Positions 3,096-14,310 of a stretch of DNA of 64,000 nt are shown piece by piece. Position 1 is the stretch's first letter. Each line of letters begins with the position of its first letter. The DNA lies in contig JAJEBY010000003.1 in the NCBI GenBank assembly GCA_022822305.1, positions 186,001-250,000 of the forward strand, read 5' to 3'. Under the pieces are notes generated by a model that saw only the letters and a program-made list of their open reading frames with translations, was not told the origin of the DNA and ran no database searches. The stretch is from Anaerolineae bacterium. Its GTDB lineage: Bacteria > Chloroflexota > Anaerolineae > Aggregatilineales > Phototrophicaceae. A program made the position numbers and the translations under genes.

Positions 3096-4181
3096 ATGTC
3101 CACAGCTCGAGCAGTGAAACGCCAGTTGCTTACCGTGGATGAACGACCGCGTCAGACTGATATGCCGGCGGACAATCTGCGCCTGGATTGGCTCATGGCG
3201 TTGACGTCTTGCGCCATCGTGTTTGGTCTGTATATTGACGGCTGGGCGCATAACCACGGCCGCGTGGATGACAGCTTTTTCACGCCCTGGCACGCTCTGC
3301 TCTACGGCGCCGTCGGCGTGTCTGGCCTCGTGCTAATCGTCACCCATTTTCGTAACGTCGGCATAGGATTCCGCTGGAGTAAGGCCCTGCCCGCGGGATA
3401 CGCGCTCTCTTTGATTGGCTTTTTCGCCTTTGCCCTTGGCGGCGTCGCCGATATGCTCTGGCACGAAGCATTTGGCTTTGAAGAAGGCATAGAAGCCTTG
3501 ATTAGTCCATCTCACCTCTACCTCGCGCTGACGGGCGTGCTCATCATGACCGGTACCATCCGCGCGATCTGGGGGCGAGAAAGCGACAATAGTTGGAAAC
3601 ACCTCGCTCCCGCCATACTTAGCTTCACCTGCATCGCCTCGGTATTCTCTTTTTTCAACGCCTACGCTCCGATCGGCGGCGACATGATCCTGCTGACCGG
3701 AACGCGGCCCGATTCTCATAGTTTGCACGACGTTGCCGGGATAATTCCCTTTGTCATCCAGAGCAACCTGCTGCTCGGTTCAGTGCTGATTATGACCTAT
3801 CGCTGGCGGTTGCCATTCGGGGCCATCACCTTGATTTTCCTGCTCAATTCCCTGTTGATGACCTGGTATCGGATCGGTGAGGCTGGCGAATTTATTTTTG
3901 CCATCAGCGCCACGGTGGTCGGCCTGCTCTGTGATACATACTACAGTCGCTATAGCTTGGCTGATACAAATCGACTGCGCTTCTTCGCCGCGTTTATGCC
4001 TTTCGCCTATAGTCTGGGCGCCATGATGATGATCCAGATCCTGGGCATCAACGTCTGGGAAAATGGCGGGCTCTGGTGGGAAATCCACATGTGGCTCGGC
4101 GTTCCCGTCCTGGCGGGCGCATTTGGCTACGGACTGAGCCTGCTCGCGCATCCGCCGGCCTTCCCTGAATCAGCCAGCTGA
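3096..4181 (+). CDS. Multi-pass membrane protein, His-rich loops, unknown function
   Basis: A 361-residue integral membrane protein with about eight hydrophobic segments. Several loops carry conserved-looking His/Asp/Glu residues: GWAHNHGRVDD, FTPWHALLYG, ADMLWHEAFGFEEG, SPSHLYLALTG and DSHSLHD. I do not recognise a named family. The start ATG has an AGGAGG box 13 bases upstream. It is followed after 30 bases by the copper lipoprotein gene on the same strand, so the two probably form one transcript. The His/Met-rich membrane face and this neighbour suggest a role in copper or another metal at the membrane, but that is inference. A weak promoter may lie near TACACT at 2978-2983. Confidence 0.8.
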   Translation: MSTARAVKRQLLTVDERPRQTDMPADNLRLDWLMALTSCAIVFGLYIDGWAHNHGRVDDSFFTPWHALLYGAVGVSGLVLIVTHFRNVGIGFRWSKALPAGYALSLIGFFAFALGGVADMLWHEAFGFEEGIEALISPSHLYLALTGVLIMTGTIRAIWGRESDNSWKHLAPAILSFTCIASVFSFFNAYAPIGGDMILLTGTRPDSHSLHDVAGIIPFVIQSNLLLGSVLIMTYRWRLPFGAITLIFLLNSLLMTWYRIGEAGEFIFAISATVVGLLCDTYYSRYSLADTNRLRFFAAFMPFAYSLGAMMMIQILGINVWENGGLWWEIHMWLGVPVLAGAFGYGLSLLAHPPAFPESAS

Positions 4182-4211: not shown

Positions 4212-5456
4212 ATGCATATGACTCGACATCTGCCGATCATCATCCTGCTCATCCTGCTCACCACTGCCTGTCGACAGCAACAAATCTCCTCCAGCGACAT
4301 TACTCTCGATTTGACCGTCAGCGACATGTTGGTCGGGGACACGACATTGCTGATAACAGTCCTCGACACAGACGGCAATGTCATCCAGAACCCGGGAAAG
4401 CTCAGCCTGCGCGGCGATATGGATCACGCCGGCATGGTACCGGTGTTCGCAGAATCGGAGACATCGATCGATGGCGTATTCACCCTGCCTTTCGAATGGA
4501 CGATGGCGGGCGGATGGATTGTCGAAGCCAGTCTGAATCTCGATTCCGGCGCCGTTGTCACGCAAAGCTTTAATCTGGAAATCATGAGCGAAGCCGGCGC
4601 GGAAGCCATGGATGGCATGGACCACAGCGACATGGATCATGCGGATTCAGCCACGGACATGACCGACATGGACCACAGCGATATGGATCATGCAGATTCA
4701 GTCGCGGACATGACCGACATGGATCACAGCGATATGGATCATGCGGATTCGGCCGCGGACATGACCGACATGGACCACAGCGATATGGATCCTTCGGATT
4801 CGGTCGCGGACATGACCGACATGGACCACAGCGATATGGATCATGCGGATTCAGCCGCGGATATGACCGACATGGACCACAGCGACATGGATCATGCAGA
4901 TTCAGCCGCGGATATGACCGACATGGACCACAGCGATATGGGTCATGCAGATTCAGCCGCGGACATGACCGACATGGATCACAGCGACATGGCAGGCGCA
5001 GCCGTCTCAGGACAAACCAGCGCCGCCTACCTCCACATCGACAATCGCGGAGCAAGCGATGTGACCATCACTGCCGCGCGTTCAGCCGCCGCCATGGCGG
5101 TTGAATTCCACCAAACCATCGTCGAGAATGACATCGCCCGCATGCAACCCGTTTCGGCGCTATCGATCCCGGCGGGACAATCGCTGCACTTGCATCCTGG
5201 CGGCATGCACATCATGTTGATTGATCTGATGCGCGACCTGACCGCCGGATCCGTCATCGCCATCGAGCTCGTTCTCGAGTCGGGCGACCTGATCGCGCTA
5301 GACCTGCCGATCATGCAGATGCAAATGGATGATGATGCTGAATTCGAGTTTGGAAATCTCGTCTTCAGTCAGCTCTGGGCGCGTCCCGCCAGCGCCGGCG
5401 CCATGCGCGAGACCGAGGCTCACGAGATGTCGATGGAAGACGATTCTTCTGAGTAA
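4212..5456 (+). CDS. Copper lipoprotein: YtkA/FixH-like + MDHSDM repeats + PCuAC
   Basis: A 414-residue lipoprotein with lipobox LTTAC (Cys20). Residues about 25-125 resemble the YtkA/FixH beta-sandwich (LRGDMDHAGM, then PFEWTMAGGW). Residues 132-260 are a low-complexity linker of 17-residue repeats with core DMTDMDHSDMDHADSAA. Residues about 261-390 form a PCu(A)C copper-chaperone domain whose ligands fit the family rule H-x10-M-x21-H-x-M exactly: His300, Met311, His333 and Met335. Known PCuAC proteins bind Cu(I) outside the membrane and deliver it to the CuA site of cytochrome oxidase. MDHS-type repeats also occur in copper-resistance proteins. The three-part fusion is unusual, and the repeats could serve as a copper store or sponge (inference). 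It lies downstream of the His-rich membrane protein. Confidence 0.9.
   Translation: MHMTRHLPIIILLILLTTACRQQQISSSDITLDLTVSDMLVGDTTLLITVLDTDGNVIQNPGKLSLRGDMDHAGMVPVFAESETSIDGVFTLPFEWTMAGGWIVEASLNLDSGAVVTQSFNLEIMSEAGAEAMDGMDHSDMDHADSATDMTDMDHSDMDHADSVADMTDMDHSDMDHADSAADMTDMDHSDMDPSDSVADMTDMDHSDMDHADSAADMTDMDHSDMDHADSAADMTDMDHSDMGHADSAADMTDMDHSDMAGAAVSGQTSAAYLHIDNRGASDVTITAARSAAAMAVEFHQTIVENDIARMQPVSALSIPAGQSLHLHPGGMHIMLIDLMRDLTAGSVIAIELVLESGDLIALDLPIMQMQMDDDAEFEFGNLVFSQLWARPASAGAMRETEAHEMSMEDDSSE
4605..4991 (+). repeat. 51-bp in-frame tandem repeat (about 7.6 units)
   Basis: The first, degenerate unit occupies 4605-4655. Six full 51-bp units follow from 4656, 4707, 4758, 4809, 4860 and 4911, and a partial unit from 4962. 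Each encodes 17 residues with 3 Met, 2 His and 6 Asp. Copies differ at a few bases, mostly synonymous (gac/gat, gca/gcg). One copy changes DHAD to DPSD and another DMDH to DMGH. The near-identity suggests recent expansion, and copy number may vary between strains. Confidence 0.95.
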
Positions 5457-5469
5457 TCCCAACCGGTTA

Positions 5470-8400
5470 TCAAGCCCCGCCAATCCAGCGCCACAGCCAA
5501 AAGCCGCGCATGCCATGCGGCACCAGCGCCAGGAACGCCGCCCCCTCGTCAGCATCCAGCGGACGCAATACGAGCAACACCGCCGCATAGACCGCCAGCC
5601 CCACGATTAGCGCGACTATGCCCGGCCCCAATACCGCTTGCAGCGCCAACATGGCGGCTAAGGCGATCAACGGACGCCACAACAATCCCGGCAAATTCAC
5701 CTGCGGCAGTCGGCGTCGCAGCAAATACATGAAGGGCAAGAGCAATACCAACTCCGATGCGATGGTGGCGATAGCGGCCGCGCGAATGCCGTATTGCGGG
5801 ATGAAGATGATGTTCGCCAGGATGTTGAAAGCGACCGCCAGGATGAAAGCGCGAGTGATCAGACGCTGCAATCCCAGGGCGATCAACACGTACTGGGTCA
5901 GGCTATTCATCCAGCCGAAAGGAATGCTCCAAATCATCAGTTGCAGGGCGATGGCGCCTTGCGGCAGATACTGCGCTCCGCCCAGCAACAATGTCAAGTC
6001 TTCCGCCAGTGCCGAAAACAGCATCGCCAGCGGCAGAGTCAACGCGAATAGCATTTTGATGCCGAAGCTGTAGCTGCGCCGCAATCCCGGCAGATCGTCT
6101 CGCGCCTGCCGCGACATCACCGGGAATAGCGCCTGCGTGAAAAAAGCCGGCACGATATTAATCGCCAGCAGCCACTTGTAAGCGGTGCTGTATTGCGCCA
6201 CCGTCCCCGCGCCCTTGATCGCCTGCAATATCACGATGTCGATCTGGAAGAATATCGTCGCCAGAAAGTGATTTAGCATCAGCGGAAAACTCTCGCCCGC
6301 CATCTCACGCAGCAGCTTCCCGTCCGGTCGCCAGCGCGCCAATCGTCCGATCAGCCGCCGACCCGCCCATACCAGCACAACCAGCGTCAGCAGGTTGTTG
6401 AATATGCTCACCGCCGCCAAGCCAACGATGCCATAACCCAGCAGCAGCGCGATCACGCCAAAAACCACCTTGTTGATGGTGGTGATGGTCGCGATCGCCG
6501 CCGGGCGTTCCGCCTGCTCGTTGGCATAGAACAGCGAGGTCATGCCTTTGGACAGACTGGCCGGGAACAATCCCAGGTACAGCAATCCAATCGCCAGCAA
6601 ACCATCGGCGCTGATTGCTTCGACGCCCGAGGACTGCCACAACAGCAATACCCCCGCCAACAACGGGACGCCGGCCAGGCTCAAGACCAGGCGGAACAAT
6701 GAACTGTTATAGAGATAATGACCCGCGCGCGTCCGCTGCTGCGCCGCTTCGCGTATCAGGAAAACATCCAGCCCAAAGTTGGTGAAGATATCGAACGCGA
6801 CAAAGAGCACCACCGCGAAGCTGTAAATGCCGACCTCTTCCTGCGCTAGCAAGCGATACATCACCATGGCGAAGACCATATCAATGCCGCGATTGAAGAG
6901 GTTGAGAATGATCGGCGCCAAGCTGTTGCGCGCCACCCGCGCCACGCCGGACGATTCATCCGTGTTCATGCCGATATAAGCGCGCCAGAACCAGCTCCCC
7001 GCCAGCAGCGCCATCAATGCCACGCTGATGGCGGACACAAACATGCCCAGGTGGACGCTGGCCGGACTATAAACCAAGCGCAAGGTCCACTCGCCCGCCG
7101 GCAATTCCAGGCCCTGCAGATTCGCCAGCACCAGCCGCACCGCCAGCCCAAACTCGGCATCTTCTCCCGCTCCGCGAGGACGAGCGAAGGCGCGCCAACC
7201 CGGCGCATAGCTCTCGCTGACCACCAGCCAGCTGTCTCGCTCGGCAGTCACATCGATGAACTTTTCGCGTCCGCTGTCCCGCGTGATCGCCGCCGCCTGA
7301 TAGCGCGGCACATGCAATGCCGTCGACGGCGTCGTGAAATCGCCGAAGTGGAATCCGCCCCCCGGTTCCGCCAGCCAGCGCGCCTCCCAATCCGCTTTGT
7401 CCACGACGAATGCCCGCGGCATCACCGACAGATTCTCCCAGATCGTCACCGCCTCGTCGCCATACACCGTCCGCCAACCGACCGGCGTACTCTGCCAGTC
7501 GCGCGGCGTCAGCACATATTTGATATTCAGCAAATTAAACAGATCAGCGGACAATACCGCCTCGTATCCGCCGCCATAATTCCAATCCGGCGTCGTGTAG
7601 ACCGGCGCTATACGATTGAAATCCAGCTGATGCTGCGGCTGCAAGGCGCGCATCGTCGCCACATAACCGGCCGGGATGATGCTGTCATATCCCCGTACAT
7701 CGTCCAATCCGTGGCGCATGCCCAGATTCGGCAATAATATCGCCGGCCGCCCCGGATCACCTTCCAAACTGGTGATGCGGAAATCGCCCGGCTGCCCCCC
7801 CAAAAACTCGACGGCGGGCGGCTTGAATTCCAGCAGCAGCGGATCGCTCGCCGGATTAAATCCGTAGGTCGCCACCAGCAGATCCACGCCGGTCATCAGC
7901 AACGCGATAATCATCCAGCGACCGGTTCGCTTCCGCGCGGCCCACAAGAAGATCACGCCGCTCAACAGCATCAATATGGCCAGCGTCACCACTTGCGGCA
8001 GCTGGAAACTGTAAAACATGCGCCCGTCCGCGAAGGCGTTCTCCGCGCCGGCCAGGTTGGTTATCAACCCGTCAAACAGTGCGGCATAGCGCTCGTATTG
8101 GAAGAACGTCACGCCCGCGCCCAGGCACAGCGCCGCGCCCGCCAGCGCCAGCGCAAGTCCAAACGCCAGCTGCCAAGTCAGTGACCAGCGTGTGCGATTC
8201 AATTGATCCGAAAGTATATGCCAGCCGAGCCCCGCCAAGGCCGCCACTGCGAAACTCATGGCGAATACCCAGCGGAAAGGAGAATTCAGCTGATTCATGC
8301 CCGGCAGCTGAAATATGAGCGCATAGGTCCGCGCGCCGAACATGAACGACACTGCCAGAATCGCCAGCGCCGCGAAGAACACGATGACACCGGCGTATCC

Positions 8401-9618
8401 TCGAGCGCCTTGCCGCCGTCGCAGCCCGGCGACCAGCGCGTATCCCGCCAGGAATATCGGCAAGACGCCTACATAAAGCGCCCCTTCAACATAGTTCTTG
8501 ATGCCCCAATCGATGAAATCAAGCGTCTCGCCCGCCGCATTGCGCAGATCAGTCACTCGCTCCCCGCTGAAGACATCGACATAACCGTGATGCGCCGGCG
8601 ATCCATAGAAGTTCGGCAGCAAAAACTGCAGGGCGTCGCGCGACGGGTGAGCGTAGCCCAGCACCGTCTCCAAACTCGAGCGCTCGCTGCGCCAGTTGCC
8701 GCCCAGGAACTCAAGCATCGGGATCAGCTGCAACGCCGATAAGCCCAATCCCAGCGCGATCATCAGCCCCAGCCAAAATCCACTGAAGCCCGCCCAGCGC
8801 CAAGGAGAACGACCAGCTTCCCGCCCTCGGCGTAGCGCCTCCCCCAACAGCCGAAAGACGGCATAGGGTACGAATATCAGCAGCGTGTATATGCTGATCT
8901 CCACGTGGCCCGCCAAGATGTTGCAAGCCAGCCCAATCGCGCCAATGATCACCCAGGGAATCGCCGTGCCCCGGAAGATCCACAGCGTTCGGCCACGCAA
9001 GATGTTTTCGATCATCCACAAGATCAGCGGCAGCCACACCGCTGCCGCCACCATCATCGGGAAAACCGCGCTCGCGATCATGAATCCCGATAGCTGAAAG
9101 GCCAGCCCGGCCAGCCCCGCCCCATAGCGGTTGACGCCCAGCGCGCGCATATAACCCGCCATGAACAATCCCGCCAGCCACAGATTGAGCAAGATGAACC
9201 AGCCATAGGCGGCGCTGAGCGGCAGCAGATAATACACAATGCTCAGCGGATAAAGCGCGGAATGCTGCCCGGCCGCTAGAAATGGAACGCCCGAAAACAC
9301 GTGCGGATTCCACAAAGGTATCTCCCCCTGCGCAATCTGATCCCGTATGAAGGACTTCCATTGGTAATTCTGCAAAACCATATCCGAAAGCAAATGGTTG
9401 TGCGGAACCGGCGGCGCCTGCGCCACCTCGCGATAAGCCGAGTACGGCAAATACTGAAACAGATTTTCAGTCGGCAGCAGCGTGCGATCGCCCAAGGTCT
9501 GCTGATGAAACATCAACAAGGGAAAGATCAACAGAAAGACGATCAGGACGAGATCAGGAGATGGGCGGCGGCGAATCAGCATCAGCGTCTGTCGATCCTC
9601 TCGATATTCAGATTTCAC
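5470..9618 (-). CDS. YfhO-like membrane protein fused to Wzx-type flippase
   Basis: A 1,382-residue membrane protein. The first about 880 residues match the YfhO type: a GT-C-like multi-pass core with LWNPHVFSGVPFLA and LSGFMIASAVFP, then a large soluble domain (VLTPRDW, SYAPGWRAF). Residues about 885-1350 form a complete oligosaccharide flippase of the Wzx/MurJ-like MOP group (NLFNRGIDMVFAMVMYRLL, then ten or more helices). YfhO proteins are implicated in glycosylation of wall polymers; flippases move lipid-linked sugars across the membrane. The join at about residue 882 contains an internal ATG (6970) with no ribosome site. The start is GTG at 9618; an ATG at 9582 is an alternative. It converges on the copper lipoprotein gene. 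Confidence 0.85.
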   Translation of the reverse strand: MKSEYREDRQTLMLIRRRPSPDLVLIVFLLIFPLLMFHQQTLGDRTLLPTENLFQYLPYSAYREVAQAPPVPHNHLLSDMVLQNYQWKSFIRDQIAQGEIPLWNPHVFSGVPFLAAGQHSALYPLSIVYYLLPLSAAYGWFILLNLWLAGLFMAGYMRALGVNRYGAGLAGLAFQLSGFMIASAVFPMMVAAAVWLPLILWMIENILRGRTLWIFRGTAIPWVIIGAIGLACNILAGHVEISIYTLLIFVPYAVFRLLGEALRRGREAGRSPWRWAGFSGFWLGLMIALGLGLSALQLIPMLEFLGGNWRSERSSLETVLGYAHPSRDALQFLLPNFYGSPAHHGYVDVFSGERVTDLRNAAGETLDFIDWGIKNYVEGALYVGVLPIFLAGYALVAGLRRRQGARGYAGVIVFFAALAILAVSFMFGARTYALIFQLPGMNQLNSPFRWVFAMSFAVAALAGLGWHILSDQLNRTRWSLTWQLAFGLALALAGAALCLGAGVTFFQYERYAALFDGLITNLAGAENAFADGRMFYSFQLPQVVTLAILMLLSGVIFLWAARKRTGRWMIIALLMTGVDLLVATYGFNPASDPLLLEFKPPAVEFLGGQPGDFRITSLEGDPGRPAILLPNLGMRHGLDDVRGYDSIIPAGYVATMRALQPQHQLDFNRIAPVYTTPDWNYGGGYEAVLSADLFNLLNIKYVLTPRDWQSTPVGWRTVYGDEAVTIWENLSVMPRAFVVDKADWEARWLAEPGGGFHFGDFTTPSTALHVPRYQAAAITRDSGREKFIDVTAERDSWLVVSESYAPGWRAFARPRGAGEDAEFGLAVRLVLANLQGLELPAGEWTLRLVYSPASVHLGMFVSAISVALMALLAGSWFWRAYIGMNTDESSGVARVARNSLAPIILNLFNRGIDMVFAMVMYRLLAQEEVGIYSFAVVLFVAFDIFTNFGLDVFLIREAAQQRTRAGHYLYNSSLFRLVLSLAGVPLLAGVLLLWQSSGVEAISADGLLAIGLLYLGLFPASLSKGMTSLFYANEQAERPAAIATITTINKVVFGVIALLLGYGIVGLAAVSIFNNLLTLVVLVWAGRRLIGRLARWRPDGKLLREMAGESFPLMLNHFLATIFFQIDIVILQAIKGAGTVAQYSTAYKWLLAINIVPAFFTQALFPVMSRQARDDLPGLRRSYSFGIKMLFALTLPLAMLFSALAEDLTLLLGGAQYLPQGAIALQLMIWSIPFGWMNSLTQYVLIALGLQRLITRAFILAVAFNILANIIFIPQYGIRAAAIATIASELVLLLPFMYLLRRRLPQVNLPGLLWRPLIALAAMLALQAVLGPGIVALIVGLAVYAAVLLVLRPLDADEGAAFLALVPHGMRGFWLWRWIGGA

Positions 9619-9799: not shown

Positions 9800-9975
9800 T
9801 TGCGCGCCCTTGAATCGACACTACAATGGGGGATGTTCACTCGAATTTGGGTACGGCATTCAAGCATATTTCGCGTCCCGGATTCTTACACGCTTTTTCC
9901 CTGCGCCAGCCTTCTGGAGACCGATAGCGAGTGACTCTACCCATTGTAAGTCTGATTTCCCAGCGGACAAATCTC

Positions 9976-12900
9976 ATGGCGGACAGCCTGTTCGACAACC
10001 GCTATCGATACAACTATATCTATCCGCGCGGCCGCTCCGGAGAGACCCTGCGCGCCACCGATACCATGAATGACGAGCGTCCGGTCGTCATCAAACGCCC
10101 CGCCCCCAACGACGCCCCGCCCATTCGCGCCGGCCAGGAAGTCAGCATCATCAACGAGCGCGAGGCGCTGACGCGTTTGGCCGGCCATCCGATTCTGACC
10201 GAATTGCTCGGGGCCGGGCAATTCTTCGTCGGCGGCATCCCCCATCAATACATCGTCATGGAGCGCGCCGAAGGCATCATCGTCGAAGAAGAGGTCGTCC
10301 GCCTGGCGGCATTGAATCAGCGCCTCCCCGAGCTGGAAATGCTGGAGATCATCGACCGGCTCATCCACCTGCTGAGCGCCGCCCACGACAAGGACATCGT
10401 CTACAACGATGTCGATGCCAAGCATCTGTTTTGGAATCGAGATACCTACACGCTCAAAGTGATCGATTGGGGCAACGCCGTCTTCCTCGAAGGCGACGAA
10501 GTGACCTCGCAAGGCATCAGCCGGCAGACCGATGTCTACCAGATCGGCGAATTGCTCTATTTCATCTTGTCCGGCGGCTACCGCGTCGATGTGCCGCGAG
10601 ACGCCGGCGCAGATTTCAGAGTCGACTTCCACCAGGATCAAGACAACGTCGAGCCACGCTTGCGCGAAATCGTCAGCAAAGCTGTCCATCCGAATCTGCG
10701 ACTTCGCTATTCATCGCTGAAGGCATTGAACGCCGATCTTTCGCATTATCGATCGCCGCTGGAACAAGTCCGGAACGCCATCGTCTCCCGCACGATCACG
10801 CGCTTGAACAATCCCAATCTCAGCCGCAATGAACTGCTCGGCTTGCAGACCCAGCTGGAATCGGCGTTGCGCCAAAACCCGGCTTATCCCGTCGCCCGCA
10901 ACACGCACAAGGAAATCGTCGATCGCCTGCGCGATCTCGAAGTCTCGGCCGATTTGGACGCAGCCGCCATCTATATGGGAAACGAAAATTGGTCGCGGGC
11001 CGGGGACCTGCTCAACGATTTGCGCGAGCGCGCCGGCAGCAAAACCTCCGGCATCATACACCTGATGCTCGATTGGTGCCTCTTGCTCATTGACGCCCAG
11101 CTCGAAAGTACGCCGGCGGCCATCACCGAGGCTATCAATCTGCTCTTCGAATACAAGCCGGACAAAGCGGCCAGCGCGCTCATGCTCGATGAAGCGGCCA
11201 GCGCCGCCCTCCATTGGCGTATGGCGGAACGCATCAGCTCTCATTTTCCCGATATCCTGCTCCTGCAACCCAATCTGAATCGGTTGGAAAACGCCGTTGA
11301 CCACATCGGCGCCGATAACATTCCGATCCACGAAGCCACGACTATCCTGCAAAGCATCAACCGCGCGCTGGATCGAACCGCCAACATGGCCAAACCCAGC
11401 GCCGCCGATCTGCGCGACATCTACGGAGAGGTCGTCGATAGCATCAGCTCGCTGAATGCCAATCTTCAAACACTCAGCTTGCAGCACGAATTCTCCGAGA
11501 GCCGGCTGCCGCTCAATGCCTTGACGCGGGCTTTGAATGCCGCTATGGCGCTTGCCGACAACATGCATGTCATCGGCAAACAAGCCGCCAACAACCCGCG
11601 CGACGCGCTCTCCGCGCTGGACGCCAGCCGCGCCATTGATCCTCGCAACCCGGTCTGGGACCAGATCGAGGATTTCCTGAGCTTGCTCTACGAAGTCTTG
11701 CAGACCAGCCAAACCTACGTGCCGGCTGTCGACGGCTCGGATCTGGCGCAATGGCTGGAGGACAAGTACGAGGAACTCGCGCCCTTTGCCAAACATCTCT
11801 TTGACGAGATGCTCATCGAAATGCTGGACAATCTGAAAAAGACCGCCGCCGCCTGGACCAGCTATCGTGAAGTTGTCGTGGCCGGCAACAAGACCGAGGC
11901 CGTGAATGCGCTGGCCCTGGCCGCCGAACGCGTCGCGACCCTCAGTCCAACGCTGTCGAGCTGGTTTAATCAGCTGCGTACAATCATCGATGGCGCCGAA
12001 TATGTCGAGCGGCACTCAGTCCCGGGGCATCTCGGGCGTACCTTGGCCGATGGCTGGTCCGCCTTTGACAACGGCCAGCTGGCCGATGCCGAGCGCCTGG
12101 GTCAGCAAGCTATGGAAATCGCCCGCGACGACAACGAAGGCGCGATCGCCGAACGCCTGTGGCGGCTCTCTCATGTGCTGCGCGAATGGGTCGAGCGCAA
12201 CGGCGTCGAGAGCGATAGCCGCACGCAGCAATCCCTGCTGGAAATTGAGAAACTATTCACCGAGGCGGAAAACAGCGCCGTCAGCAATTTCGCCGGCCAG
12301 ATGCCCAGCACCGAGACCTATCTGAAAGCGATGGGGCAAGGCTTGGTCCAAGCCTTCGGCAACAGCTGCACAGCCGCCTTGCGCATCCTCTTCGCCCAGT
12401 ATATTTTGTCCGGCGTGCTGGATGCCCACGATGGCTTGATCGACGACGCCCGCTTCTGGCGCGCCGCAGCTCTCCGCGCCCTGCCCGAAACCGCGGAGCG
12501 TCAGCCTGCCCTGGCTAAACTTGACGATTATATCGAACGACGGACTGCCCTGCTGGGCGCGCAAAATCAGCTGAACGGCGTCAATGGCAAGGTTGCGCTT
12601 GGCGCCATAGACGAGCTGGTGCGACAGCTGGAAAACAATGACCAGGAGCGCTTGCTGGCGCCGGCAGTGCATAGCCTGCGCACGCTGGAAGCCGCCGTGC
12701 AAGATTGGGCTGGCGCAGAATTCCGCGCGGCCGGCGGCAAGATTGATCAAGCCCTGCGCGCCATCACCGAAACCGAATCCAATGCCAACATCAGCTTGGC
12801 TGACTACCGCTCCTGGTTGGTGAAATTGCAGGAGGCGCTGGCGGAACTGAGCGTCAAACGCCGTAACATGCTGCAAGAAATTGACCGCCTGCCCGATGAA

Positions 12901-14310
12901 CCCCGAGAGATTATCCGCGAAGTCCTGCGCCTTCAAGTCGATGCCACCGAAGACCTGATCGGCGCGGCGCACACGCAAATGCTGGGGGTTTGGCGCGATA
13001 CCTACGAGCAGTTCCTCGAAATCTACACTTCCGACGCGCTACCAAGTCAAAAGACCGAAGCGATGAATGAGGGTTTCAAGGCGCTGTTCATCGAACGCAA
13101 TCCCGCCTATCCGCTCTTCCGCCATTGGTGGCGGCGCTTGGAGGATATGCCGGACGACGTAGTGACGAGCGCCGAATCTGCGAACGCCGGCCCCGCCGAG
13201 GAAGCCAGCGAGAGCGACGATGAACGTGAGCCCTTGAGCGATTCCGCCGCCATCCCCGCAAAACATCGCTCGCCGATGAGTCGCCTGCTCTTCCGTGTGG
13301 GCGCCTTGGTCGGTTTGATTCTGGTAATCGGCGGTCTGTTCTCGCTGGCAGCTGATGACAACTTCAGCAGCTTGTTGGCGGTCTTCGCGCCATCGCCAAC
13401 CGCCACGCCCAAACCCACGGCTACCGCGCTGCCAACCAAGTTGCCCGCGAGCGCCGATGTGGACAGCGACGACGCCGATGACGAGTCGCCCGACGCATCC
13501 GAAGCGAATCTGGCGCCGCTTGTCATTGATGCAGCCGCAGCGGATGTGAGCGAAAAACCGGAAATGGTTGAAGCGACGGTTGAGCCCGCCGCCACTGAAC
13601 CGCCGCCGCCCACAAAAACGCCCGAGCCGACCGCCACCGATCTTCCCACGCTGACGCCAACGCCCGAAGACACGCCAACGCCAACCGCTACCGCCACACC
13701 CGCTCTGCCACCGGAAGGCCTGACGGGCGAGCAGAATCTGCTCAAGCTCTATGGATCATCATTGACGGCCCCATTTTGGAATGAAAGGCAATTTCGTTCC
13801 GTGGATGGCAGCTGGCGCGTCGGCGTCAGCAGCAATACTGAGGGCGATACGATACAGGTGTCTCCGCCCGCCGACTTGCTCGAAAAAATGTATGGCAATA
13901 GCGCGCCCGGCCGCGTCAGTCGCGTCGAAGCCGATTTAACCCTGCGCAGCTTCAATCCCGCGGTCGTTTCCGGCGATGATGTTTATTTCGGCATCATCTT
14001 GCAAAGCCAGTCCGGCGACAAAAGCGCGGGCATACAAGTGCAAGCCGTCGGTCCCAACGTGATCAACCTGGCGCGCGTGCAAGATGGCGAGGCCAATTTT
14101 GTCAGTCAGCGCTCTGTCAACGCGGTGATCGTCCGTCTGCGCCTCGAATTCGACCGCGAAAACGATGTCGTCTTCGCCTACTACAACGATTCGCAGATTG
14201 GCTCAGCCGTCCCCTTGGACGCGCCCGATGACCAGGTGCTTCCCGTTATTTTTGCCAAGGATGGCGGCGTGATCATCGGCGTCTCGTCCTGGCGCATCAC
14301 TCTGGAATAA
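9976..14310 (+). CDS. Atypical Ser/Thr kinase-like receptor, Thr/Pro linker, membrane anchor
   Basis: A 1,444-residue protein. Residues about 10-260 form a protein-kinase-like fold: VVIK (Lys40), a helix Glu near 61-63, VYNDVDAKH in place of HRDLKxxN (Asp145) and DWG in place of DFG (Asp164). The Asn normally five residues after the catalytic Asp is His150, so activity is uncertain. Residues about 270-1090 are long alpha-helical, TPR-like repeats. One membrane helix lies near 1101-1128 (GALVGLILVIGGLFSL). A Thr/Pro-rich spacer (PTATPKPTATALP) then leads to an extracytoplasmic beta-rich domain of about 190 residues (GSWRVGVSSNTEGD). The ATG at 9976 is preferred over the in-frame GTG at 9931. 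A sensor kinase or scaffold is likely; its partners are unknown. Confidence 0.8.
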   Translation: MADSLFDNRYRYNYIYPRGRSGETLRATDTMNDERPVVIKRPAPNDAPPIRAGQEVSIINEREALTRLAGHPILTELLGAGQFFVGGIPHQYIVMERAEGIIVEEEVVRLAALNQRLPELEMLEIIDRLIHLLSAAHDKDIVYNDVDAKHLFWNRDTYTLKVIDWGNAVFLEGDEVTSQGISRQTDVYQIGELLYFILSGGYRVDVPRDAGADFRVDFHQDQDNVEPRLREIVSKAVHPNLRLRYSSLKALNADLSHYRSPLEQVRNAIVSRTITRLNNPNLSRNELLGLQTQLESALRQNPAYPVARNTHKEIVDRLRDLEVSADLDAAAIYMGNENWSRAGDLLNDLRERAGSKTSGIIHLMLDWCLLLIDAQLESTPAAITEAINLLFEYKPDKAASALMLDEAASAALHWRMAERISSHFPDILLLQPNLNRLENAVDHIGADNIPIHEATTILQSINRALDRTANMAKPSAADLRDIYGEVVDSISSLNANLQTLSLQHEFSESRLPLNALTRALNAAMALADNMHVIGKQAANNPRDALSALDASRAIDPRNPVWDQIEDFLSLLYEVLQTSQTYVPAVDGSDLAQWLEDKYEELAPFAKHLFDEMLIEMLDNLKKTAAAWTSYREVVVAGNKTEAVNALALAAERVATLSPTLSSWFNQLRTIIDGAEYVERHSVPGHLGRTLADGWSAFDNGQLADAERLGQQAMEIARDDNEGAIAERLWRLSHVLREWVERNGVESDSRTQQSLLEIEKLFTEAENSAVSNFAGQMPSTETYLKAMGQGLVQAFGNSCTAALRILFAQYILSGVLDAHDGLIDDARFWRAAALRALPETAERQPALAKLDDYIERRTALLGAQNQLNGVNGKVALGAIDELVRQLENNDQERLLAPAVHSLRTLEAAVQDWAGAEFRAAGGKIDQALRAITETESNANISLADYRSWLVKLQEALAELSVKRRNMLQEIDRLPDEPREIIREVLRLQVDATEDLIGAAHTQMLGVWRDTYEQFLEIYTSDALPSQKTEAMNEGFKALFIERNPAYPLFRHWWRRLEDMPDDVVTSAESANAGPAEEASESDDEREPLSDSAAIPAKHRSPMSRLLFRVGALVGLILVIGGLFSLAADDNFSSLLAVFAPSPTATPKPTATALPTKLPASADVDSDDADDESPDASEANLAPLVIDAAAADVSEKPEMVEATVEPAATEPPPPTKTPEPTATDLPTLTPTPEDTPTPTATATPALPPEGLTGEQNLLKLYGSSLTAPFWNERQFRSVDGSWRVGVSSNTEGDTIQVSPPADLLEKMYGNSAPGRVSRVEADLTLRSFNPAVVSGDDVYFGIILQSQSGDKSAGIQVQAVGPNVINLARVQDGEANFVSQRSVNAVIVRLRLEFDRENDVVFAYYNDSQIGSAVPLDAPDDQVLPVIFAKDGGVIIGVSSWRITLE

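Follow-up and report, generated by a model that had tools for sequence, protein, structure and literature searches.

The window analysed here, a stretch of 64,000 nucleotides from an Anaerolineae bacterium (assembly GCA_022822305.1, contig JAJEBY010000003.1, positions 186,001 to 250,000 of the forward strand), encodes a predicted lipoprotein that joins a YtkA/CtaK-like domain, an array of 17-residue Met/His/Asp repeats and a PCuAC copper chaperone domain. Sequence comparison and a structure model make a circular permutation of the PCuAC domain very probable: the W-A-R-P strand, which is N-terminal in ordinary PCuACs, is C-terminal here. The parts are known chemistry in a new order, and the protein is a real, unusual variant. 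A first-pass annotation had presented this three-part copper protein as an oddity. The open reading frame (ORF) is real and does contain these three parts, but their fusion is ordinary throughout the genus. The annotation was also incomplete, as it missed the likely permutation, the upstream membrane protein and the fact that this is the sole PCuAC of its genome. The features of the lipoprotein gene are the following:

4212-5456 (+): lipoprotein ORF, 414 amino acids, predicted lipoprotein
4212..4271 (+): signal peptide and lipobox (C20), read from the sequence; helix 6-21 in the model
4293..4586 (+): YtkA/CtaK-like beta domain, residues 28-125, with invariant D69, M70, H72, M75 and M98
4617..4991 (+): 17-residue Met/His/Asp array, residues 136-260, seven full units and a last MDHSDM; predicted disordered, with blocks of predicted local distance difference test (pLDDT) scores of 42-53
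5001..5321 (+): PCuAC core, strand 2 to the last strand, residues 264-370
5109..5216 (+): copper-site motif H300-x10-M311-x21-H333-x-M335, in the exact H-x10-M-x21-H-x-M pattern
5349..5399 (+): putative relocated first PCuAC strand FGNLVFSQLWARPASAG, residues 380-396, from the tandem-profile test, the position-specific scoring matrix (PSSM) test and an AlphaFold2 strand
5400..5453 (+): Met/acid-rich C-terminal tail, residues 397-414, read from the sequence; low pLDDT

A probably permuted PCuAC domain

A protein search yielded 140 relatives among 7997 scored candidates. The 120 that are listed, together with the window protein, make up the 121 family proteins counted below, and an alignment was built from the window protein and 67 of these relatives (68 sequences). 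The named relatives come from metagenome assemblies labelled Anaerolineae, Chloroflexi or Chloroflexota. The Pfam family PF04314 (PCuAC) matches residues 266-359 of the window protein with an E-value of 3.3e-26 and 91.7 bits, against a curated cut-off of 29.4. The copper-site residues H300, M311, H333 and M335 have precisely the spacing that the first-pass annotation had claimed. It is kept in 107 of the 121 family proteins, and in the alignment M311, H333 and M335 are invariant while H300 is present in at least 90% of the sequences.

The Pfam match starts at profile position 12 of 109, and the first four profile positions are covered by no match in 34 genus genomes. Ordinary PCuACs of the order, as read from their sequences, open with a W-x-R strand. 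The window PCuAC does not have this strand order; because its W-x-R motif lies at the C-terminal end, we class it as a probable permuted variant and not as an ordinary member. The pattern W-[AGS]-[RS]-[AP] is confined to the last fifth of the chain in 111/121 family proteins, and some of the remaining 10 carry the variants WART, WLRP, WMRP or WSRS close to the C-terminus. Residues L383, W389 and R391 of the moved strand do not vary in the 68 aligned sequences.

For a tandem-profile test, 14 ordinary PCuAC domains were combined into a profile, to which the degenerate first domain of L044 did not contribute. This profile was joined to itself head to tail, with shuffled tails in 20 repeats as control. 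A single hit ran across the junction in 116 of the 123 family proteins, compared with 17-28 of 123 for shuffled tails, and the median gain was 4.3 bits versus 0.2-0.6. When the tail was moved to the front, the Pfam score rose from 94.1 to 98.6 and the match began at profile position 3; a shuffled tail gave 95.4. A PSSM of the tail was scanned over 91 ordinary-order proteins and in 70 of them scored best immediately before strand 2 (24.8 for uniform placement, mean of 32.7 for shuffled columns). In the AlphaFold2 model, residues 383-390 form a strand within a block of pLDDT 97. Solved PCuACs align at most to model residues 264-373 (ends at 370-373), and their leading residues have no counterpart in the model (11 residues in 2k6w, whose alignment starts at chain residue 12). 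The first strand of the solved PCuACs lies in this leading part.

Several points weigh against a permutation. The evidence concerns a strand of about 16 residues and gains of a few bits, and the AlphaFold2 strand is known from its strand call and pLDDT. Seven of the 123 family proteins do not cross the junction: in P0113, P0115, P0118 and P0119 the chain stops directly behind WARPASAG, the ends of P0086 and P0112 look unrelated, and P0109 has WSRS. Among the 32 genus-like named loci (L051-L082), 27 cross it, and so does L031, an ordinary single-domain protein. The PSSM test is the weaker one, the best of 200 column shuffles having reached 71.

From its sequence, the segment 1-20 looks like a signal peptide whose lipobox ends in C20, and a lipobox-like pattern was found in 103/121 family proteins. 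A second ATG at 4218 is an alternative start and could be the true one. The N-terminal domain of the window protein scores 18.5 bits with the YtkA profile PF13115, below the cut-off of 25.9; 46 of the 68 aligned family members match this profile at E <= 0.001, and the distant fusion L047 reaches 35.5 bits. Its residues D69, M70, H72, M75 and M98 show no variation in the alignment, and its fold matches that of CrdA/CopC-type Met-rich copper proteins. The structure prediction that the annotation had suggested (AlphaFold2, 68 sequences) gave two confident domains and a disordered linker.

Distribution and possible origin of the probably permuted form

A survey of 150 genomes of the class detected PCuAC at E <= 0.001 in 70. 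In the 78 loci that were fetched, the window's own not among them, 76 ORFs were classified: 48 were ordinary by profile, 3 tandem, 1 permuted and 24 "other". The N-terminal strand of the last group looked ordinary by eye in 23 cases, and the remaining one (L211) is a fragment. The sole permuted ORF, L210 of genome G079, belongs to the window's family f1, so that among the classified ORFs the permuted form occurs in this family only. All three tandem PCuAC-PCuAC proteins (L190, L197 and L201) are f1 members as well. Further members are the permuted fusions L047 (YtkA-PCuAC) and L046 (ZnuA-PCuAC) and the tandem L044. L089 has the same core as L210 and was taken as the same record. Another permuted fusion is L092. 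Tandem PCuACs also occur outside f1: L087, L091, L112, L116, L124 and L125 likewise have two domains.

Circular permutations classically arise when a gene is duplicated in tandem and the outermost segments are then lost, and the tandem forms in f1 are the intermediate that this route would lead one to expect. A single origin of the permuted form was not rejected on testing. The loop between strands 1 and 2 contains at least three Met plus His in 19 of 44 listed ordinary class members, which suggests that the chain was re-cut in this loop. This in turn suggests that the linker and the C-terminal tail of the window protein may be the two halves of the old strand 1-2 loop.

Some relatives show other combinations. 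In the protein encoded at L046:2779-4329, the metal-binding protein ZnuA is joined to a PCuAC that has the moved strand, and in L183 the order is reversed, an ordinary PCuAC being followed by what reads as ZnuA. L205:566-2848, an f1 member by eye, encodes 761 residues that read as CopC, CopD, a YtkA-like part and a PCuAC in ordinary order; it resembles YcnJ with a PCuAC added. Genome G079, which has the permuted fusion L210, also contains an ordinary PCuAC gene followed by a gene reading as Sco (L188:827-2118).

The Met/His/Asp repeat array

Tandem Repeats Finder reported the array at window positions 4616-4992 with period 51, 7.4 copies, 92% matches and a score of 628. It is the only tandem repeat with a score of at least 60 in the 64 kb, and is thus not a chance occurrence. 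The consensus MDHSDMDHADSAADMTD has the 3 Met, 2 His and 6 Asp named by the annotation, whose estimate of over 20 Met and about 15 His for the array is close to our count of 23 Met, 14 His and 43 Asp in the 125 residues 136-260.

The window protein contains 7 full units, P0001 6 (without the Pro-containing unit), P0002 5, P0003 2 and P0004 none. The long array is local; among the listed relatives it is found only in those closest to the window protein. It likely arose recently by tandem duplication. Linkers could be parsed in 117 of the 121 family proteins and measured 10-140 residues, with a median of 21. Met occurs in 116 and His in 113 of them. Compared with the rest of the protein, the pooled linkers (window protein, P0001 and P0002 left out) are enriched in Met (13.5% vs 4.8%), His (7.6% vs 2.0%) and Asp (18.5% vs 7.3%). 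The annotation had named homologous linkers lacking Met and His as an outcome that would speak against it; these counts go the other way.

Other linker arrays have units of 5, 8 and 15 residues (P0111, P0011 and P0083), and P0092 has an array of a 20-residue unit in its C-terminal tail; P0009 and P0085 gave weaker array calls. The arrays of other unit sequence are again Met/acid-rich, and their differing units suggest that such arrays arose several times. A thioredoxin-like lipoprotein in G033 (L214:1244-2281) carries its own Met/Asp/Ser array; its best NCBIfam match is TlpA with 27.2 bits, far under the cut-off of 230.

Genome complement and the upstream membrane protein

Each of the 34 genus genomes has exactly one PCuAC. 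The frames are 235-606 residues long; the longest is found in G033, and the 235-residue frame, in G032, contains stops within the match. The annotation had proposed a domain-architecture search for YtkA-PCuAC fusions, and in 32/32 genus-like named loci the PCuAC ORF also matches the YtkA profile. Sco is present once in all 34 genomes, and at least one COX2 was found in every genome (one in 33, two in G033), with matches that are weak but over the cut-off. The window's own genome has one Sco and one COX2; we searched it for a second PCuAC and found none. Its COX2 shows the CxxxCxxxHxxM (CuA) pattern and lies beside what read as other oxidase genes; it scores 131.7 bits with NCBIfam CoxB, under the cut-off of 147.7.

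Directly ahead of the lipoprotein gene, with a gap of 30 bases, is a second gene of interest:

3096..4181 (+): upstream membrane protein, 361 amino acids, with invariant H52, H54, H66, H123, H140 and H331

The six His are invariant across 42 sequences. A search among 8000 scored candidates yielded 866 relatives of this protein. We found no Pfam family for it and no clear solved relative of its structure model, which is helical and confident. The gene stands directly upstream in 31 of 35 fusion genes (the window's excluded), of which 29 were counted by script; the other two are L066 and L076, in which the called start overlaps the membrane protein gene. The script-counted gaps range from a 4-base overlap to 57 bases, plus two of 161 and 201 bases. 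L047, L074 and L089 lack it upstream, and L067 begins at the edge of its contig. The His-bearing membrane protein is a predicted copper partner of the fusion.

Proposed role and alternative explanations

CuA is loaded by PCuAC and Sco in several bacteria, and B. subtilis uses CtaK (YtkA) instead of PCuAC (PMC9145763). The literature presents the two as alternatives that serve CuA in different bacteria (PMC9145763), and the YtkA domain within YcnJ partly backs up CtaK (PMC13344008). Because a CtaK-type and a PCuAC helper share one lipid anchor here, a copper relay for CuA is the best reading of the protein. We consider it rather probable that the permuted YtkA-PCuAC lipoprotein is a tethered relay for CuA assembly with an antenna linker. 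The predicted lipoprotein would take up copper on the outside of the membrane and hand it over, likely via Sco, to the CuA centre of the cytochrome c oxidase encoded in its genome. An ordinary PCuAC chain would have been re-cut in the strand 1-2 loop, leaving Met/acid-rich ends on both sides, and the N-side end would have become the linker to the YtkA domain. This linker is predicted to act as a flexible, low-affinity antenna, a weak store with many sites between two tighter stations, the YtkA site (M70, H72, M75, M98) and the PCuAC site (H300, M311, H333, M335). More repeats would then hold more copper near the client, and the Met and His content of the linkers fits an arm that stores or transfers copper. 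What the arm does is the least certain part of this reading, because the literature on PcuC tails is divided, with reports for and against copper being carried by the disordered Met/His extensions of PCuACs (PMC12860648). A bolder version is tentative and, in our estimate, doubtful. It describes a CuA-loading machine in which the PCuAC was re-cut in its Met/His loop, the loop became a copper-holding arm to the CtaK-type domain on one lipid anchor, the six-His membrane protein feeds copper in, and the repeat number tunes the store and changes fast between strains.

Some observations count against such a relay. In crystals of C. sphaeroides PcuC, the Met/His tail took no part in copper coordination (PMC12860648). 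The COX2 gene lies about 57 kb upstream of the lipoprotein gene on the same contig and Sco on another contig, so the fusion gene shares no operon with the oxidase. Linker length varies freely, down to 10-11 residues, and the array is therefore a variable feature of the protein. The lower repeat numbers of P0001 and P0002 were found on contigs of 7.1 and 2.7 kb and could reflect assembly collapse. The N-terminus of P0002 (68 residues) is foreign-looking and unlike that of the window protein. The rest of P0002 matches P0001 minus one unit, and the sequence on this 2.7 kb contig is possibly an assembly chimera.

The array could also be a neutral minisatellite that grew by slippage from one ancestral MDHSDM, with the linker as a mere flexible tether and Met and His as passengers. 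This is what the falling copy number in close relatives (7, 6, 5, 2, 0), the 92% unit identity and the 10-140 residue range of the linkers would look like. A protein in G008 that reads as LysM by eye contains acidic tandem repeats without Met or His, so the genus may expand acidic repeats in general. The codons point both ways. The seven full units differ from the majority codon at 16 codons, 10 of them silently (P 0.004 under transitions only, the differences not being independent events), and Met codons changed in 0 of 21 cases (P 0.035), compared with one His codon. When distinct variants alone are counted, 5 of 10 are synonymous (P 0.11), which is not clearly above the transition-only expectation. 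However, passengers would hardly persist in nearly every linker of the family, Met in 116/117 and His in 113/117, nor should relatives' arrays of other unit sequence again turn out Met/acid-rich. We regard neutrality as unlikely.

Two further roles have been considered for a Met-rich surface protein of this kind. It might confer copper resistance as a protective sponge like PcoE or CrdA, with no part in oxidase supply. Being the sole PCuAC in every genus genome, accompanied by one Sco and at least one COX2, it makes a poor candidate for this, and no efflux or resistance gene was recognised by eye among the conserved neighbours listed, not every one of which is annotated; we think this role quite improbable. 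Lower still do we rate the idea that the exposed Met array is an oxidation shield, a sacrificial sink for copper-made reactive oxygen near the oxidase and not a carrier. The Met-rich PcuC tail, without copper in the crystal, has been proposed to aid protection from oxidation (PMC12860648). However, His and Asp are enriched in the linkers about as strongly as Met, and a Met sink needs neither.

Comparison with known systems

With the relay as the preferred reading, the protein can be set beside known copper proteins. It shares the core profile, the fold, the H-x10-M-x21-H-x-M site and the extracytoplasmic location with PCuAC/PcuC (PF04314; Thermus TTHA1943, 2k6w; Streptomyces, 3zja), and a disordered Met/His-rich extension is common in that family as it is here (PMC9145763, PMC12860648). 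It differs in its probably C-terminal first strand, the YtkA fusion, the predicted lipid anchor and the place of the array, which is the linker here and a C-terminal tail there. Like CtaK/YtkA (PF13115) from Bacillus subtilis and YcnJ with its YtkA domain, it would present a lipid-anchored extracytoplasmic domain with conserved Met and His. CtaK is a published helper of CuA assembly in B. subtilis (PMC9145763, PMC13344008), which is reported to have no PCuAC (PMC9145763); the window protein combines both helpers in one chain. Helicobacter CrdA (9ll4) and the CopC-type Met-rich copper proteins share the fold of the N-terminal domain and the Met-rich loop, but CrdA lacks His (PMC9182242) and is a single short domain. 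PcoE, a Met-rich periplasmic metal sponge, has many weak Met-type sites, as the array would; unlike the array, it is described as a protein of its own that does not belong to a chaperone (PMC9182242).

If the permutation is true, it is a natural one of a metallochaperone and indicates that the PCuAC copper site tolerates re-cutting. This is the most surprising of our claims. Permuted, ordinary and tandem relatives in one family would form a natural set for studying chaperone topology, the Met/His arm and copper delivery. The most testable claim concerns the repeat series, as natural arrays of 0 to 7 units make copper carriage by Met/His extensions directly testable. One chain unites PCuAC and CtaK, which had been described as alternatives for CuA assembly, and the finding points to an uncharacterised membrane protein that likely works with the fusion.

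Gene neighbourhood

From a genome scan, 80 of 104 relatives were kept. In 36 of these 80 loci a membrane protein is present that we take to be NapH/NosR-like, and some contain genes that we read as nos genes. By eye, YtkA genes lie near genes reading as a nitrous oxide reductase (nos) cluster in L095, L099, L101, L110, L111 and L124, hinting that there may be another CuA client in other lineages.

In the window itself, the lipoprotein gene is followed by a gene for a 1382-residue protein with YfhO-like and polysaccharide-flippase-like parts (5470-9618, - strand); 31 of the 80 loci have a member of its family close to the lipoprotein gene. A further protein of 1459 residues (9931-14310, + strand) shows a weak kinase match at its N-terminus, which stays under the cut-off, and its family is found in 28 of the loci.
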